21,398 bases of DNA from a virus, in IMG/VR virus record IMGVR_UViG_3300006059_000120, positions 1-21,398 of that record; one strand, 5' to 3'. The notes beneath the pieces were generated by a model. It was not told where the DNA came from and searched no databases. It saw only the letters and a program-made list of their open reading frames with translations. This document shows, piece by piece, positions 13,540 through 21,191 of this stretch; positions within the stretch are counted from its first letter, which is position 1, and the number at the start of each line of letters is the position of its first letter. The position numbers and the translations under genes were made by a program.

Positions 13540-14067
13540 ATGAAAAAACTGTTGAAAACACTGCTTGTTACCGTTGCCATTTTCGCCGCAGTTGGATCCG
13601 CCTTCGCCCAGCGTGCTGCGACTTATACGCTTGGCGGATTGAACGGCTCGACTGCCGTCATCCCTGCTGGAAGCACGAATACGTTTAATCCGACGGCCAC
13701 AAGCACGAACAGTTTCAACGTGCCGAATGGCGCGACATTCACCACGAATCTACTCTCACTGCCATGCTCGGAATTTGATAAGCCTGGCGTGACGTTCGCT
13801 TTCACCGGCACTGCGACAAGCACGAACAGCATATCTGTGTATCGCTCCTATGATGACGGAAGAAGTTACGAAGCGAGTCCGACATTCTCTGCGACCGGGA
13901 TTGCCCCCGGTGCGGCAAGCTTTATTACAAACGCAGTGATTGACGCGACTGGTGCATCGTCTATCGCCGTCAAAATCACCGGAACTGGCACTACCAGTTC
14001 GACGAACGCGCTTTTGGAAGTCAAGTTGAAGTCGCCCAAATATGGGATGAAGCCTTCGACTCAATAA
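13540..14067 (+). CDS. Secreted, beta-rich phage protein with signal peptide
   Basis: The N-terminus is a clear signal peptide: Lys-rich start, hydrophobic core (LLVTVAIFAAVGS), and AFA|Q cleavage after residue 23. The mature part (about 150 aa) is Thr/Ser/Asn-rich and beta-strand-rich (GSTNTFNP, TSTNSFNV, TSTNSISVYRSYDDGRSY), like an Ig-like or decoration domain. Phage structural proteins normally lack signal peptides, so it is either an exported accessory (surface or superinfection role) or a virion protein with an unusual route. Shares the CTTATG start context, and ends 7 bases before the tRNA gene. Family not recognised. Confidence 0.75.
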   Translation: MKKLLKTLLVTVAIFAAVGSAFAQRAATYTLGGLNGSTAVIPAGSTNTFNPTATSTNSFNVPNGATFTTNLLSLPCSEFDKPGVTFAFTGTATSTNSISVYRSYDDGRSYEASPTFSATGIAPGAASFITNAVIDATGASSIAVKITGTGTTSSTNALLEVKLKSPKYGMKPSTQ

Positions 14068-14074
14068 ACTTAAT

Positions 14075-14151
14075 CGCGGAGTAGAGCAGCCCGGTAGCTC
14101 GTCAGGCCCATAACCTGAAGGTCGTTGGTTCAAATCCAACCTCTGCAACCA
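14075..14151 (+). tRNA. Initiator-type tRNA-Met (anticodon CAT), CCA encoded
   Basis: A 77-base cloverleaf: acceptor CGCGGAG with CTCTGCA-ACCA, D stem GAGC/GCTC, anticodon stem TCAGG/CCTGA with loop CCCATAA, variable AGGTC, T stem GTTGG/CCAAC with loop TTCAAAT. The unpaired C1 opposite A72 and the overall sequence identify an initiator (fMet) type. Odd points: position 33 is C, where almost all bacterial tRNAs have U, and the anticodon stem has A29-U41 where E. coli has G-C. It lies inside the structural operon, on the coding strand, and its 3' end is 6 bases from the next start. Confidence 0.93.
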
Positions 14152-16097: not shown

Positions 16098-16673
16098 ATG
16101 CAAGCACAACCAAGAATTGTCGGCAATCACGTCTATTTCTTTCGCGACGGAGATCCGTTCACTGTTCCCGGTGCAGGCGTCGCCAGCCGCACCGCCAAGC
16201 CAGGTATCACCGACGCCGGTTGGATTGAGTTCGGCAACGTGAACAAGCTGGACATCGTCCACGACAAGGAAGAAAAGGAGATTTACGCGCCGGCGCCGAG
16301 TCGCCTTGAGCTTTTCGACGTGCTTCAAAATAAGCGCAAAACGAGCATCAAGTTCGACACGCAGAACTTGACGCCCATCGCTTACGAATTGGCGTTTCAC
16401 ACCAAGCCGCTGACTGGCGCGGGTGCCAACGCTGCCGCTGCCGCTGCAAATCAGGCCGCTTTCAACCCGGGTTCAGGCAACCCGATCAAGGGATGGTTGC
16501 ACGTCGAACAGTTCGGCCCCGACAGCGATGTCACGCCAATCAATACGGTTGACCTTTATGTGTATCTGGCCTTGGACGGCGACCTGAAGTTTGATGAAAA
16601 CGTCGTCGCGGTTTCGATGCAGGCTACCAAGCTCACCAGCACGCTCAATGTCGGCGCTTTGATTGCCGGCTAA
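16098..16673 (+). CDS. Major tail tube protein (V position)
   Basis: Forms the tail tube of the siphovirus. 191 aa with the pattern of tail tube proteins: N-terminal strands, AGWIEFGNVNKLDIVHDKEE (residues about 40-59), EIYAPAPSRLELFDVLQNKRKTSIKF in outline, a central Ala-rich loop (GANAAAAAANQ), and a C-terminal beta region (TVDLYVYLALDGDLKFDEN). It is the expected neighbour of the tail terminator and is followed in lambda by the chaperone genes; here a cassette of exported proteins intervenes. ATG 16098 in a CTTTATG context. Confidence 0.75.
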   Translation: MQAQPRIVGNHVYFFRDGDPFTVPGAGVASRTAKPGITDAGWIEFGNVNKLDIVHDKEEKEIYAPAPSRLELFDVLQNKRKTSIKFDTQNLTPIAYELAFHTKPLTGAGANAAAAAANQAAFNPGSGNPIKGWLHVEQFGPDSDVTPINTVDLYVYLALDGDLKFDENVVAVSMQATKLTSTLNVGALIAG

Positions 16674-16682
16674 AAAATCACC

Positions 16683-16946
16683 ATGAGGACGCTTTGTGCC
16701 ATCTTGCTCGCGCTGCTGGTTGGCGCGAGCGTTGTTTTAGCTCAATACACGACCAATCCGCCATCCGTTGTCACAAACATCTTTGTTTTCACGACGAACG
16801 CGCCTGGGTTGAACACCAATGCATTTGTGTTCAACACAAACGCGCCGAACGTCTGGACAAACCGATTTGTATTCACAACAAATTCTCCCGGGAAAGTGGT
16901 CAACACAAATAGTTTCACGACCAACGCTCCTGGCAATCACCCATGA
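16683..16946 (+). CDS. Secreted Asn/Thr-rich tandem-repeat protein (87 aa)
   Basis: Signal peptide at residues 1-20 (MRTLCAILLALLVGASVVLA|Q). The mature part is four imperfect units of about 15 residues with the pattern TN-x-FVF-x-TNAPG. Such short beta-turn repeats suggest an elongated, surface or matrix-like peptide. First gene of the exported cassette between tail tube and chaperone. ATG 16683 lies 7 bases after the tail tube stop; its TGA overlaps the next ATG. No family recognised. Confidence 0.7.
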   Translation: MRTLCAILLALLVGASVVLAQYTTNPPSVVTNIFVFTTNAPGLNTNAFVFNTNAPNVWTNRFVFTTNSPGKVVNTNSFTTNAPGNHP

Positions 16947-18478
16947 GTCGTTTTTTTTTATTCACGGCGTTTCTGCTTTTGGCTTCATTGATTGAAGTCT
17001 CGGCGCAGAGCTTCACAAACATCAATGTAGGATCGTCTGCCAACGCGCACGATGGAGATCCGCTGCGTGTTGCGTTTGAAAAGGTCAACAGAAACTTCAT
17101 GCAGGTATCTAACATGTTCGGTTTGACCGTCACAAATGTTCAGGTTGACTCAAATTGCACGGCCTATGTTGTCGGGCAGACGTTGCATATTGGTGTTCCG
17201 ATTTCGAATGCGACTGTTTTAACCAATGGCGGCGGAGCCGTGACTGTGAACTCGTCTGGCGTGATTTCCGCTTTGAGTTCCGGCGGCGGGACACTGACGC
17301 TGGACGCCAGCGGGAATGTTTCGGTGCGCGGCTCTGGCGGTGGGTATATTTCACTGGACGACGCAGGTAATGCCAACTTTGGCGCATCGGGTTCAATTTT
17401 ATCCATTGACCCAAGCGGAAACATAGCCATTGAAGCTGTCAATGGAATAGAATTAGTTGGTTACACCTACGGAGAATCCATCTCAATGCCGGGAGACGGT
17501 TCGGTGTCCATGACTGGCCTTGGTGGCGGCTATGTCACCGCAGATGGAGACGGAAATGTTACTTTTGCTGGGCCGGGTGGAAGCATTTTCAGTTCCAGCA
17601 CAGGTGAAGCTGGTATGCAAAGTTCTACCGGCGGGGCATTCAATCTTGACGGGAATGGTAACGCAATGGTTCACGGCGCGGGGAACACGCTCGATGGTGA
17701 CGGCAATGTGGTGAACTCTGCGGGTGAAGTAAGTCTCACGGGTGGCAGCTTCTCGCAGCCAATAATCATCGAAGGCACCGCAACCGGCGGGAACATTACT
17801 GTCGGCGGCGCGAGCAGCGGAAACGGTGGCGACATTTCCATCACAGGCGGTATTGGAGCACCCGGATTTCCGGGTGGCAATGTGTCTATTTCAGATGCTG
17901 GTGGTAACAGCATTGTTTTCGATGGTTCTCAAAACTTAACCATAACCGGCAGCGGTGGCGGCTATTTACATGGTGATAACACTGGCGCAGTGAGCATGAC
18001 TGATATTAACGGGGCGTATGTTGGCGTGGACGGAACTGGCGGGGCAATATCTACAAGTCCCAGCGGGGCCAGTGTATCGGCGGTGGCTAGCGGGGATGCG
18101 TCCATGACTGGCAGCGGGCACGGCAGCTTTGTCGCAGACAGCGTCGGTAATGTGACCGCGACCGGACACGGCGGCGGGTATTTTACCGCAGACGGCAATG
18201 GGATTGCTTTTCTCTGGGGCTCTGGCGGCGGCGCGATTTACGCTGACGATTCTGGTAACTCGGAGATGGATAGCTCGGATGGTTCAGGCATTGTTGTGAC
18301 CCATAATGGAAACGTCAACATTTATAATTCGGGCGGAGCCTCTATTGCTATAGATGGCCCCGGCAACATTGCAATTCTACCAGTCAGCGGTGCGGCAGTC
18401 TCAATAGCCACTGTTGAGGGCGACACATTCTACGCCCACACGGATTCGGGATATTTAGTTTGGACAACATCACCATAA
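16943..18478 (+). CDS. Secreted Gly-rich beta-repeat protein with phage tail-fibre-like N-terminus
   Basis: Residues 1-21 are a signal peptide (LLLASLIEVSA|Q). Just behind it comes GDPLRVAFEKVNRNF (38-52), a motif widely seen near the N-terminus of phage tail fibres and their adsorption proteins. The remaining 430 residues are a Gly/Ser/Asp/Asn-rich repeat of about 20 residues with the pattern GxGGGYxxxDxxGNxxxxG, likely a beta-helix or beta-solenoid, ending in a short different tip (GDTFYAHTDSGYLVWTTSP). A signal peptide on a fibre-like protein is unusual. Starts by ATGA overlap. It could be a virion fibre or a secreted surface protein. Confidence 0.72.
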   Translation: MSRFFLFTAFLLLASLIEVSAQSFTNINVGSSANAHDGDPLRVAFEKVNRNFMQVSNMFGLTVTNVQVDSNCTAYVVGQTLHIGVPISNATVLTNGGGAVTVNSSGVISALSSGGGTLTLDASGNVSVRGSGGGYISLDDAGNANFGASGSILSIDPSGNIAIEAVNGIELVGYTYGESISMPGDGSVSMTGLGGGYVTADGDGNVTFAGPGGSIFSSSTGEAGMQSSTGGAFNLDGNGNAMVHGAGNTLDGDGNVVNSAGEVSLTGGSFSQPIIIEGTATGGNITVGGASSGNGGDISITGGIGAPGFPGGNVSISDAGGNSIVFDGSQNLTITGSGGGYLHGDNTGAVSMTDINGAYVGVDGTGGAISTSPSGASVSAVASGDASMTGSGHGSFVADSVGNVTATGHGGGYFTADGNGIAFLWGSGGGAIYADDSGNSEMDSSDGSGIVVTHNGNVNIYNSGGASIAIDGPGNIAILPVSGAAVSIATVEGDTFYAHTDSGYLVWTTSP

Positions 18479-18486
18479 ACAAAATT

Positions 18487-18879
18487 ATGAAAAAAATCAT
18501 CATCATCGGCGTTGCGGCATTGCTGGCAACGACAACCATTACCAACGCGCAGAACGTCGCCACCAACACGGCAGTTCTGGCTGCTCAATGTCAGGTCGTG
18601 CGTGCGGAGATTCAGGCGACGTTTTACACCGTCGCGCCGAGTCCGTATCAACCGGGTGGCACCATGGCGGCTTTGAACACGAACAACATCGCCAAGATTC
18701 CGGCGGTGGTGTCCGCGATGACCGGCGGCAAGGTCACAATCGCGTCTGACGCCAGCCCGACCATCATGGCGAACGCGCTGGCCGCGACGCTCTCGGCGGT
18801 ATCGAATCCTCCGCGACGGTATGCCGACCTGACCAACTCGCTCGCGCAGTTGAACGCGGGATGGGCGGCGGCGCAGTAA
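18487..18879 (+). CDS. Secreted helical hypothetical protein (130 aa)
   Basis: Signal peptide at residues 1-21 (MKKIIIIGVAALLATTTITNA|Q). The mature part has Ala/Thr/Asn-rich helical and loop segments, with a conserved-looking PSPYQPGGTMAAL and a C-terminal RRYADLTNSLAQLNAGWAAAQ. No catalytic motif seen. ATG 18487 (Lys-rich start) chosen over the in-frame upstream ATG at 18460, which would hide the signal peptide behind nine extra residues. Part of the exported cassette. Confidence 0.65.
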   Translation: MKKIIIIGVAALLATTTITNAQNVATNTAVLAAQCQVVRAEIQATFYTVAPSPYQPGGTMAALNTNNIAKIPAVVSAMTGGKVTIASDASPTIMANALAATLSAVSNPPRRYADLTNSLAQLNAGWAAAQ

Positions 18880-18901
18880 TCCGTAGTTGAATGGAATCAG
18901 T

Positions 18902-19255
18902 ATGACCGACAAATGGCGCAAGCAGGTCAATGAAATCAGCGAGCGGACAAACGTGACCGTCTCGGTGGCGACGGCTTGGTCGCTGGCAGTCGCGCTGGTT
19001 GTCGGTGTCGTGGCCATGAACAGTGTTGTCTCAAACATTCGCGCCGGTCAGAACGAGATTTTGAATGAGTTGAAGGTGATGAACGAAACTGCGGTTGACC
19101 ATACCGAGATGCAGCAGTTCTGCGACAATTTGCGCGAGGTAAACGAGAAGTTGCCGCTCAAGGTGCCACCGTTCCCAAATAATCACCCGCACGTCGGGAT
19201 GGCGGCTGCGGTTCTTCCCGAAACCAGAATAACAATGAGGAAGGACGAACGGTGA
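18902..19255 (+). CDS. Small membrane protein with periplasmic coiled-coil, spanin- or holin-like
   Basis: One transmembrane segment at about residues 25-45 (VATAWSLAVALVVGVVAMNSVV) after a short N-terminal helix, then a helical region with heptad-like spacing (IRAGQNEILNELKVMNE). This layout resembles i-spanins or XhlA-like lysis accessory proteins, but there is no matching lipoprotein gene, so the call is only 'membrane protein'. ATG 18902 follows CAGT with no SD. Its TGA overlaps the next gene's GTG (GTGA). Confidence 0.6.
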   Translation: MTDKWRKQVNEISERTNVTVSVATAWSLAVALVVGVVAMNSVVSNIRAGQNEILNELKVMNETAVDHTEMQQFCDNLREVNEKLPLKVPPFPNNHPHVGMAAAVLPETRITMRKDER

Positions 19256-19446
19256 ACAACAATCTTTCAACTATCTTTGCAAATCCGCATCTGCGTTGGT
19301 GCGGTATTATGCTCGCTGCGATAACCATTGCTGGCGTTTGGCTTCCGGCTTACAAGCCGCAGTTTGATGCGACGGCAAAGATTGTCATGCTTTACGCCAT
19401 CGCTGCGGCTGCAAACTCGACTCCGCAACCGCCGAAGCCAGTATGA
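19252..19446 (+). CDS. Small holin-like membrane protein (64 aa)
   Basis: GTG start at 19252 overlaps the previous TGA; AGGAAGG lies about 12 bases upstream. The 64-aa product has a hydrophobic segment at about residues 18-33 (GIMLAAITIAGVWLP) and a second weaker one (IVMLYAIAAAA), plus a Pro-rich end, consistent with a class II holin. The in-frame reading beyond its TGA continues for 28 codons with a further hydrophobic segment (see 19471). Confidence 0.55.
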   Translation: MNNNLSTIFANPHLRWCGIMLAAITIAGVWLPAYKPQFDATAKIVMLYAIAAAANSTPQPPKPV

Positions 19447-19470
19447 CACAAGTCGGCTATTTTCTCGGCG

Positions 19471-19533
19471 ATGCTGGTGGCCGTAGCCATCGGGGCGGCG
19501 CGAAGTTACGCAAAAACAAACAAATCGAAATGA
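19471..19533 (+). CDS. Tiny hydrophobic reading frame (20 aa), possibly a frameshifted small gene
   Basis: ATG 19471 to TGA 19533: a short hydrophobic stretch (LVAVAIGAA) and a basic end, in the same frame as the preceding gene and separated from it by only one TGA. Its stop overlaps the next start (ATGA at 19530). It may be a real mini-gene, the continuation of the preceding gene split by a stop, or the body of a gene that begins at ATG 19443 and lost one base. Too short for certainty. Confidence 0.3.
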   Translation: MLVAVAIGAARSYAKTNKSK

Positions 19534-20126
19534 AACGTATGAAGTTCAATAAATGGATTCTCGCACTCGCCGCAGTTGGCGTCATCATGGCCGCGTCCGC
19601 TGTTCGGGCGCAGACCGCGCAGACCAATCCGCCCGCGTCGTTTTGGGGCGGGCTTGGCGAGGCTGGTCAGGCGTTCGTGAACATCTTCAAGAGCGACACC
19701 AATGCGATCGGCTCGACCACATGGGTAGCGGTTCCGTTTGCGTCCTACGACGTGAGCATGAAGAAAATCGGTGGAGGCGTTGCAGCCATCTATCCTGTGG
19801 CGAACACCCCGCTGTATGTCGGTGCGCGACTGGAAAACATCAACGGCACATGGACGACCCCCAGCTTGCAGGTGCAGTTGAAGAAGAAAATCACAGTGGC
19901 CGGGATGTCGGTTACACCATTCGGCGTTGGTGGCACGGCAATCGTGAACGGCAACGTCGCGGCCTACGTCGGGTTGGGTGTGTATGTTGACTTCGTGGAC
20001 TTCACCATCAAAAGCAACCCGGCATCGTTCGGCTTTATGGGTGATTACGAGTCGTGGGGCGGTCTGCCAGCGACGTGCGGCACGAAGCGGGCGAACGCCG
20101 GGCCATGCCTGAAGCTCTCGTTCTGA
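19530..20126 (+). CDS. Secreted, outer-membrane-like beta-rich protein (198 aa)
   Basis: Signal peptide at residues 1-27 (WILALAAVGVIMAASAVRA|Q), hence ATG 19530 rather than ATG 19443. The mature part alternates beta strands (TTWVAVPFASYDVSMKKIGGG, LYVGARLENINGTW, TPSLQVQLKKKITVAG, NVAAYVGLGVYVDFVDFTI in segments) and ends with KLSF, a C-terminal Phe like outer-membrane beta-barrels. Two Cys near the end (TCGTK, GPCLK) could form a disulfide. Might sit in the host outer membrane, for example to block receptors; that is inference. Member of the exported cassette. Confidence 0.65.
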   Translation: MKRMKFNKWILALAAVGVIMAASAVRAQTAQTNPPASFWGGLGEAGQAFVNIFKSDTNAIGSTTWVAVPFASYDVSMKKIGGGVAAIYPVANTPLYVGARLENINGTWTTPSLQVQLKKKITVAGMSVTPFGVGGTAIVNGNVAAYVGLGVYVDFVDFTIKSNPASFGFMGDYESWGGLPATCGTKRANAGPCLKLSF

Positions 20127-20128
20127 CC

Positions 20129-20248
20129 ATGCTTGGAAACAATAACAACTGGAACAGCCTGCCAAAATTCGTGCGAGCCGCCATTGTTGGCGGTTTCACG
20201 ATTCTGGCGGGGGAGGTTTTGTGGTGGTTGCAAACCATTGCGTTTTGA
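20129..20248 (+). CDS. Very small membrane protein (39 aa), holin-like
   Basis: ATG 20129 directly follows the previous stop (2 bases). The 39-aa product has a single hydrophobic segment (AAIVGGFTILAGEVLWWLQT). The TGA is shared with the next ATG (TGATG at 20246-20250). Such tiny membrane proteins in phages often act in lysis. A longer reading from ATG 20105 would overlap the preceding gene. Confidence 0.5.
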   Translation: MLGNNNNWNSLPKFVRAAIVGGFTILAGEVLWWLQTIAF

Positions 20249-20796
20249 TGAAGAACAACGGACATTTTCTGACGCAGTTGGAAGTCACGCCTTTGGATGA
20301 CGGAATCCACTGGCGTCTGGATGAGCCACTGAAATTCCGTGACAAGCGCGGCGACATTCATTGCGTCCACAAGGGTTTCGTGACGGACTTTGCCACCATT
20401 CCGCCGCTGGCGTTCATCGCGGGATTGTTCTTGTCGTTTCTTGTCCCATTTGATGTCGGCTGCGCGTGGACTCACTGGCTGCGTCCGCTGCTATGGGCGG
20501 CACCGCTGACGCTGTTCGCGCTGTTTGTGGTGCTTGTGTCCGACTCGTTCAACTGTGACGACAGCGGTGCATCAAAACTCAATGCACCGGCAACACTGCA
20601 CGATGACGGCTACAAACGGGCGCGGCTCGGCAGGAAATGGTCTGACGTGCGTATGAAGCTGTACTGGGACAGGCTGCTTCGTGAGGCGTGCCTGGCTAAC
20701 GGCGTCAGTCCGTGGATCGCGTGGACGGTGTGGGGCGCGGTCGCGACATTCGGGTGGCTGTGCTGGCACGGTAAGAAGCCTTTAACAGAAATCTAA
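20248..20796 (+). CDS. DUF1353 family protein with an inserted membrane segment
   Basis: The core fits DUF1353, a small phage-associated family: WRLDEPLKFRD, GFVTDFATIPP (43-53), ATLHDDGYK (115-123), a SDVRMKLYWDRLLREA helix and NGVSPWIAWTVWGAVATFGW (151-170). Between TDFATIPP and the LHDDGY block it has about 60 residues, with strongly hydrophobic stretches (AFIAGLFLSFLVPF, PLLWAAPLTLFALFVVLVS), where the family normally has about 20, so a membrane hairpin seems to have been inserted. Start at ATG 20248 by TGATG. Its molecular function is unknown to me. Confidence 0.78.
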   Translation: MKNNGHFLTQLEVTPLDDGIHWRLDEPLKFRDKRGDIHCVHKGFVTDFATIPPLAFIAGLFLSFLVPFDVGCAWTHWLRPLLWAAPLTLFALFVVLVSDSFNCDDSGASKLNAPATLHDDGYKRARLGRKWSDVRMKLYWDRLLREACLANGVSPWIAWTVWGAVATFGWLCWHGKKPLTEI

Positions 20797-20804
20797 AACA
20801 CTTT

Positions 20805-21191
20805 ATGGACGCAACAAACACCAAAACCACAATGCTCGGCGGCTCACAGTTCACCGTCGAGTTTACCGACGGCAACCAAAAGACCGTCACCGTGAAACAG
20901 CTTCCCATTCGAAAGATGGAAGCATACCTCGAAGCCCAGCAGGACGAAATCAAGATGATTGAACTCGTTGTGCCGGACTTGCCGCCGACACTGATTGACT
21001 CGCTCAAGCCGGAATCGCACGAAGCTCTGGTTGCCGAGATTGAAAAGGTCAACGCCGATTTTTTCTCACGCTGGTTCAGCCGTCTTCAGGCGCGGGTGGA
21101 ACGGGTGGCTCCCGGCGTGATGAGTCGTCGGCTCGCCGCGCTGTCCGAATCGCCGATTTCGTCGCCGAAACGTGCATCGTCACCGGCCTGA
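20805..21191 (+). CDS. Tail assembly chaperone, short form (gpG-like)
   Basis: Located before the presumed tape measure gene, as lambda G. The N-terminal domain is beta then helical (TMLGGSQFTVEFTDGNQKTVTV, VKQLPIRKMEAYLEAQQDEI), followed by helices up to residue 87. A slippery heptamer at codons 86-87 allows -1 frameshifting to a longer product that uses the frame ending at 21394. Unshifted, it ends in a Ser/Arg-rich tail of about 40 aa. ATG 20805 in a CTTTATG context. Confidence 0.75.
   Translation: MDATNTKTTMLGGSQFTVEFTDGNQKTVTVKQLPIRKMEAYLEAQQDEIKMIELVVPDLPPTLIDSLKPESHEALVAEIEKVNADFFSRWFSRLQARVERVAPGVMSRRLAALSESPISSPKRASSPA

Follow-up and report, generated by a model that had tools for sequence, protein, structure and literature searches.

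Exported and membrane proteins between the tail tube and tail assembly chaperone genes of a Verrucomicrobiota phage

INTRODUCTION

Tail assembly chaperone genes directly follow the tail tube gene in lambda and in phage yong3. In the virus record IMGVR_UViG_3300006059_000120 from IMG/VR, 4.1 kb lie between the two, which raises the question of what the intervening genes are and how they came to stand there. The record is linear and incomplete, with the right part of the phage missing, and we refer to its full 21,398 bases as the window. Between the tube and chaperone genes we find a cassette in which B, C, D, and G encode proteins with signal peptides, E, F, and H small membrane proteins, and I a protein of the DUF1353 family. 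The explanation we prefer, with moderate confidence, is that genes for receptor fibres (B and C, perhaps also D) and for host lysis or envelope functions (E to I) were moved en bloc into this position.

The virus is a phage of Verrucomicrobiota bacteria and belongs to a siphophage group. PHROG matches define a lambda/HK97-like head module, with terminase (phrog_15), portal (phrog_21), S49 protease (phrog_53), and major capsid (phrog_247) genes. Relatives of the capsid protein were found in Verrucomicrobiota genomes, several of them labelled Pedosphaerales, and in uncultivated virus contigs.

RESULTS

Gene content and borders of the cassette

A preliminary description of this DNA had placed 4.1 kb of exported and membrane genes between tube and chaperone, at a point where lambda-like genomes have none. 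Both statements are borne out. All of these genes are present there on the + strand, and in the related phages L014, L020, and L029, as in lambda and yong3, the chaperone gene comes directly after the tube gene. The features are as follows, with the predicted signal peptidase cleavage point shown by a hyphen.

16098..16673, + strand: tail tube protein, left border, identified mainly by position and by homology inside the phage group (homologue with 52% identity in L002; only a weak match to phrog_807, E = 0.018)
16683..16946, + strand: B, exported 87-amino-acid Thr-Asn-rich repeat protein (signal peptide VLA-Q)
16943..18478, + strand: C, exported fibre-like protein of 511 amino acids (signal peptide VSA-Q), with a GDPLRxAFxKVNxNF domain followed by Gly-rich repeats
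18487..18879, + strand: D, small exported protein of 130 amino acids (signal peptide TNA-Q by the scorer described below, weak against shuffled sequences)
18902..19255, + strand: E, 117 amino acids, one transmembrane segment (residues 20-38) plus a charged/coiled region; holin/spanin-like by type
19252..19446, + strand: F, small hydrophobic protein of 64 amino acids with hydrophobic segments; holin-like by type
19530..20126, + strand: G, exported protein rich in beta structure, with LKLSF at its C-terminus (signal peptide VRA-Q)
20129..20248, + strand: H, single-transmembrane peptide of 39 amino acids
20248..20796, + strand: I, phospholipase A2-type protein of the DUF1353 family into which two membrane helices are inserted (Pfam 2.6e-10)
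20805..21191, + strand: tail assembly chaperone, right border (phrog_1442 at 3e-5; homologues in L008, L014, L025, and L029 at 5e-19 to 1e-22)

Gene coordinates and overlaps were verified on the sequence. The cassette is closely fitted to its surroundings, with gaps of 9 nucleotides from the tube gene to B and 8 nucleotides from I to the chaperone gene. It had been described as one tightly overlapping series with three or four tiny membrane proteins; we count three, and overlaps of 1 to 4 nucleotides occur at B/C, E/F, and H/I, whereas D and G, with starts as chosen, do not overlap the gene upstream.

A DUF1353 protein with a membrane insertion

Protein I, recognized in the preliminary description as a DUF1353 protein with an added membrane segment, scores 40.2 bits against PF07087, where the cut-off is 22.5. 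It retains the GFxTDFAxxP motif and the catalytic His-Asp and Asp of the family, and nine positions (G43, F44, D47, A49, P52, H118, D119, D141, and G169) are invariant among 21 aligned sequences. Phospholipase A2 (PLA2) activity has been demonstrated for the Salmonella DUF1353 protein TtaP, with H70, D71, and D85 taking part in catalysis (PMC11525133). These residues correspond to H118, D119, and D141 of I, the last of which aligns at H+23. A profile of 11 DUF1353 proteins ranked solved PLA2 structures first (8k1w, 0.003; 7ygk, 0.007; 4aup, 0.07), and an AlphaFold2 model of I had a predicted local distance difference test (pLDDT) score of 81.

Unlike TtaP-type enzymes, I carries an insertion of 46 extra residues, which follows the motif, precedes the catalytic helix, and comprises two predicted transmembrane helices. 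FVTDFATIP and HD are consequently 65 residues apart, compared with a usual spacing of 19 to 21. This distance is 19 residues in all 22 of the other viral DUF1353 proteins compared; our scan of viral sequences for further members with the insertion returned one, in the phage contig L098, where the spacing is again 65. From these features we infer that I may be a membrane-anchored PLA2-type protein. PHROG assigns it to phrog_1158 (9e-17), a family named tail assembly chaperone, whereas Pfam and the literature point to PLA2; the PHROG name probably comes from gene neighborhood.

In phage FNU1, a DUF1353 gene lies two genes from an amidase gene (PMC6591296). DUF1353 was found in 68 of 388 Verrucomicrobiota genomes, and its neighbors in prophage-like stretches are often small transmembrane proteins and lipoproteins (20 stretches judged by eye, with no background count), as in L066, L068, L069, L077, and L082. 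No DUF1353 protein exceeded the cut-off in 14 related records and host genomes, and the enzyme is therefore not general to the phage group.

The series recurs in a second phage and in other positions

The order of the cassette is kept in L098, which was found by a scan with the DUF1353 alignment and is part of a 61-kb phage contig. It encodes, in sequence, a fibre-like protein of 1182 amino acids with a signal peptide, a 50-amino-acid transmembrane protein, E- and F-type proteins, a homologue of G, an H-type protein, and I. The two I proteins are 57% identical over 171 amino acids and share the rare insertion. The two G proteins are 24% identical over 146 amino acids (E = 1.7e-5 in a 16-sequence comparison), and H takes the same place as a 42-amino-acid transmembrane or lipoprotein-like gene in L098. 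E-type genes occupy the same relative position in L098, L004, and L002, each adjoined by an F-type gene, and the E and F proteins of L098 resemble those of L004.

The gene 5′ of the L098 fibre gene is homologous (about 1e-20) to the final large tail gene of the L004 contig; it has no PHROG or Pfam match, and we label it a tail-tip homologue by position only. Fibre and lysis genes usually sit after the tail tip. The L098 set thus stands in the ordinary place, and that of the window is displaced.

Related phages carry comparable sets elsewhere. They lie between terminator and tube genes in L002, L008, and L014; in L002, the genes 5′ of the tube encode a transmembrane-plus-coil protein, a 70-amino-acid hydrophobic protein, an exported protein ending in LEYDY, and a lipoprotein, and two exported proteins follow 3′ of it. 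A single exported gene separates tube and chaperone in L008. Within the same interval L025 has 4.3 kb encoding a LamG-type protein, a transmembrane protein, a lipoprotein, and a small protein, and L004 has a similar set, including a 780-amino-acid exported protein, after its homologue of protein A (described below). The cassette is not unique to the window, and its varying positions among relatives are those of a module that moves about inside a single gene block. The preliminary description had proposed looking for the same gene set between tube and chaperone in related phages; L098 has the same order after its tail-tip homologue, and L025 has another set in that interval.

At the place of the DUF1353 gene, L004 encodes a 152-amino-acid protein (L004:14366-14824) with no Pfam match, in which His/Cys motifs like those of a permuted NlpC/P60-type enzyme can be seen by eye.

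Membrane, envelope, and fibre-like proteins

Beyond its transmembrane segment, E shows a weak Rz-like PHROG match, at E = 0.12 only. Past the stop codon of F, its frame continues from 19446 to 19533 as HKSAIFSAMLVAVAIGAARSYAKTNKSK, which reads by eye as hydrophobic and may represent readthrough, a relic, or a tiny gene. G is a candidate outer-membrane protein, a barrel being suggested by its C-terminus and amphipathicity: a C-terminal aromatic residue is present in three of three G-type proteins, and their beta-amphipathicity z values are 2.9 (window G), 0.4, and 3.0. Like lambda Lom, G would be a Sec-exported protein encoded within a tail gene block; it differs in having no Lom/Ail-family match in Pfam or PHROG, in its place in the gene order, and in being accompanied by a lysis-like set.

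B resembles L002 and L008 in its placement, since a signal-peptide gene directly follows the tube gene in those phages too. The N-terminal domain of C is homologous (1e-5) to that of L007 15330, another signal-peptide protein, which in turn matches the T4_gp9_10_N family (PF07880) at 1.8e-4, under the Pfam cut-off; C is linked to this family only via L007 15330. The shared domain recalls T4 gp9/10-like fibres and tailspikes, with the difference that in C and L007 a signal peptide precedes it and neither protein reaches the cut-off. No homologue of D was found in Pfam, in PHROG, or among the proteins of relatives. Translated searches (tblastn) of 50,697 phage records with A, C, and I gave no match.

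Export signals are a feature of the group

Signals were scored with a home-made Sec scorer rather than SignalP, against a small control set of 87 genes from lambda, Ab105-2phi, vB_VhaS-tm, and yong3. Five of the 23 structural-module genes in the window (A, B, C, D, and G) were classed as exported, versus 3 of the 87 controls, one of which was lambda Lom. E also passed the scorer, although we take its hydrophobic stretch for a transmembrane segment. Within the structural block of Vibrio phage vB_VhaS-tm there is likewise a signal-peptide-like protein (L132:17405-17857).

For A, B, C, and G, composition-matched shuffles rarely scored as high as the real sequence (0 to 23 of 2000; B 3, C 0), in line with the signal peptides proposed earlier. 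The signal of D was weak by this measure, with 346 of 2000 shuffles reaching its score, because its N-terminus is very hydrophobic. An AxA-Q site had been proposed for all four cassette proteins; the A-Q part stands, but position -3 holds V or T instead of A. Gln follows all five predicted cleavage sites between 13540 and 20126 (5 of 5 A-Q), as under the Q-rule of Bacteroidetes (PMC5837995). Among sampled Verrucomicrobiota hosts, Gln occupied +1 in about 3 of 30 signals (a small sample), so the phage pattern is not just the reflection of a rule that hosts strictly follow.

The fifth of these proteins, noted earlier as a further signal-peptide protein at 13540, is encoded upstream of the cassette.

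13540..14067, + strand: A, exported protein of 175 amino acids, encoded after the capsid gene and before the tail genes (signal peptide AFA-Q)

An alignment of eight A-family members, 24 to 38% identical to the A of the window, has as its only invariant columns A23-Q24 (the cleavage site), T46-N47, and T155-N156, the mature part being mostly variable. A had no match in the 388 sampled Verrucomicrobiota genomes, in a search run without a positive control. Its predicted fold (pLDDT 62) gave many weak matches to phage fibre-like beta-sandwiches, which are not decisive. Directly downstream lies a tRNA-Met (CAU) gene at 14075-14151, as also in L003 (8928-9002) and L004 (12229-12305); the A-tRNA pair is thus kept.

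Two further cases were seen in relatives. A second exported family is encoded just 5′ of the tube gene in L004 (L004:18844-19248) and in the L098 contig (L126:16564-16941), its members matching at about 1e-23, and L006 encodes a 1202-amino-acid exported fibre-like protein (L006:13154-16762) with a weak match (0.005) to calcineurin-type phosphoesterases (metallophosphatases). Given the signals on the A family, the pre-tube family, the C/L007 proteins, and the L006 protein, predicted export signals on head-tail-block proteins characterize this siphophage group.

DISCUSSION

If the cassette is a displaced fibre and lysis module, E and F would serve as holin/spanin-type inner-membrane proteins, and G would reach the outer membrane via Sec. 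With its membrane hairpin as an anchor, I would act as a phospholipase A2 cutting envelope phospholipids late in infection, thereby helping to open the cell, and B and C would be fibre-like proteins sent through Sec. The sequence itself shows which genes are present, their signals, the DUF1353 identity of I with its catalytic residues, and a gene order kept in a second phage; all of these functions, their timing, and the final site of the fibre-like proteins we infer. As in holin-endolysin-spanin cassettes, small transmembrane proteins, a transmembrane peptide, and a putative envelope-directed enzyme are combined in a late region; the window differs in the location between tube and chaperone and in having a phospholipase-type protein, whereas no endolysin or spanin family can be recognized.

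Several results weigh against this explanation. The authors who deleted TtaP saw no envelope defect in the resulting strain (PMC11525133). In a fold search with the model of I, the PLA2 8k1w was the top PDB match, at a weak E of 1.2 and a TM score of 0.42 on the target. E, F, and H have no significant Pfam or PHROG family match, their hydrophobic segments notwithstanding. A Pfam scan of the cassette found no endolysin, and scans for Amidase_2 (PF01510), Phage_lysozyme (PF00959), SLT (PF01464), and M15_4 (PF13539) were empty in the incomplete window record. D is not accounted for. Tailed phages are usually pictured as assembling in the cytoplasm, and virion fibres with signal peptides do not readily fit that picture. 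In siphophages of Verrucomicrobiota, genuine virion parts (fibres, a capsid-adjacent protein, and a pre-tube protein) might be Sec-exported and join the particles only beyond the cytoplasm, while the cell lyses or afterwards, with maturation partly periplasmic or extracellular; we regard this as quite unlikely.

The exported proteins could instead belong to the host surface. A, B, C, and G would then coat or remodel it in infection or lysogeny, for example by receptor blocking or phage exclusion, in the way that Lom-type morons might, beside a neighboring lysis set of E, F, H, and I. The conserved Sec signals, most strikingly the invariant A-Q of A, speak for this, as do the outer-membrane-barrel features of G and the exported Lom in the tail region of lambda, and integrase-like genes seen by eye in relatives would permit lysogenic expression. 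However, the large signal-peptide proteins of L098, L004, and L006 have tailspike- or fibre-type layouts by eye, the L098 fibre follows the tail-tip homologue at a site of virion fibre genes, and A and C lie within tight virion operons. We judge surface coating or remodelling unlikely.

That the N-terminal segments are not used for export at all appears improbable. They would then belong to ordinary virion proteins and serve assembly or membrane contact at DNA entry, in keeping with genes that lie inside the head-tail operon and with the fibre-type N-terminal domain in C and L007. Canonical n-, h-, and c-regions and the cleavage site are nevertheless kept in the diverged A family, and five of five A-Q sites in the window would be needless for a merely hydrophobic segment. 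Highly improbable is an artifact in which the junction joins two phages in a chimeric assembly. The lack of a cassette between tube and chaperone in L014, L020, and L029 would fit a chimera, but the 8- and 9-nucleotide gaps at the two borders do not, and an exported gene stands right after the tube independently in L002 and L008, with the 4.3-kb set of L025 in the same interval.

The preliminary description had proposed action in the host envelope, and its lysis and fibre options agree with the PLA2 family of I and with the L098 series. It had also called the cassette the best candidate in the window for an undescribed system; that term is too strong for the whole, because the cassette reads as a displaced fibre and lysis module: its parts are of known kinds, and the membrane-hairpin PLA2, the location, and the exported fibres are variants. 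It had reasoned that virion proteins normally escape export, a premise which is itself put in question, since fibre-like proteins of this group bear signal peptides. Among the papers available for searching, none was of use on the export of virion proteins or on a role of phage phospholipases in lysis.

These findings offer a function, open to testing, for genes that would otherwise be annotated as hypothetical or, through the PHROG name of the DUF1353 family, mislabelled as tail assembly chaperone. They suggest that phospholipid hydrolysis may form part of phage lysis. Furthermore, conserved export signals on fibre-like and capsid-adjacent proteins conflict with the usual picture of tailed phages as assembled in the cytoplasm.

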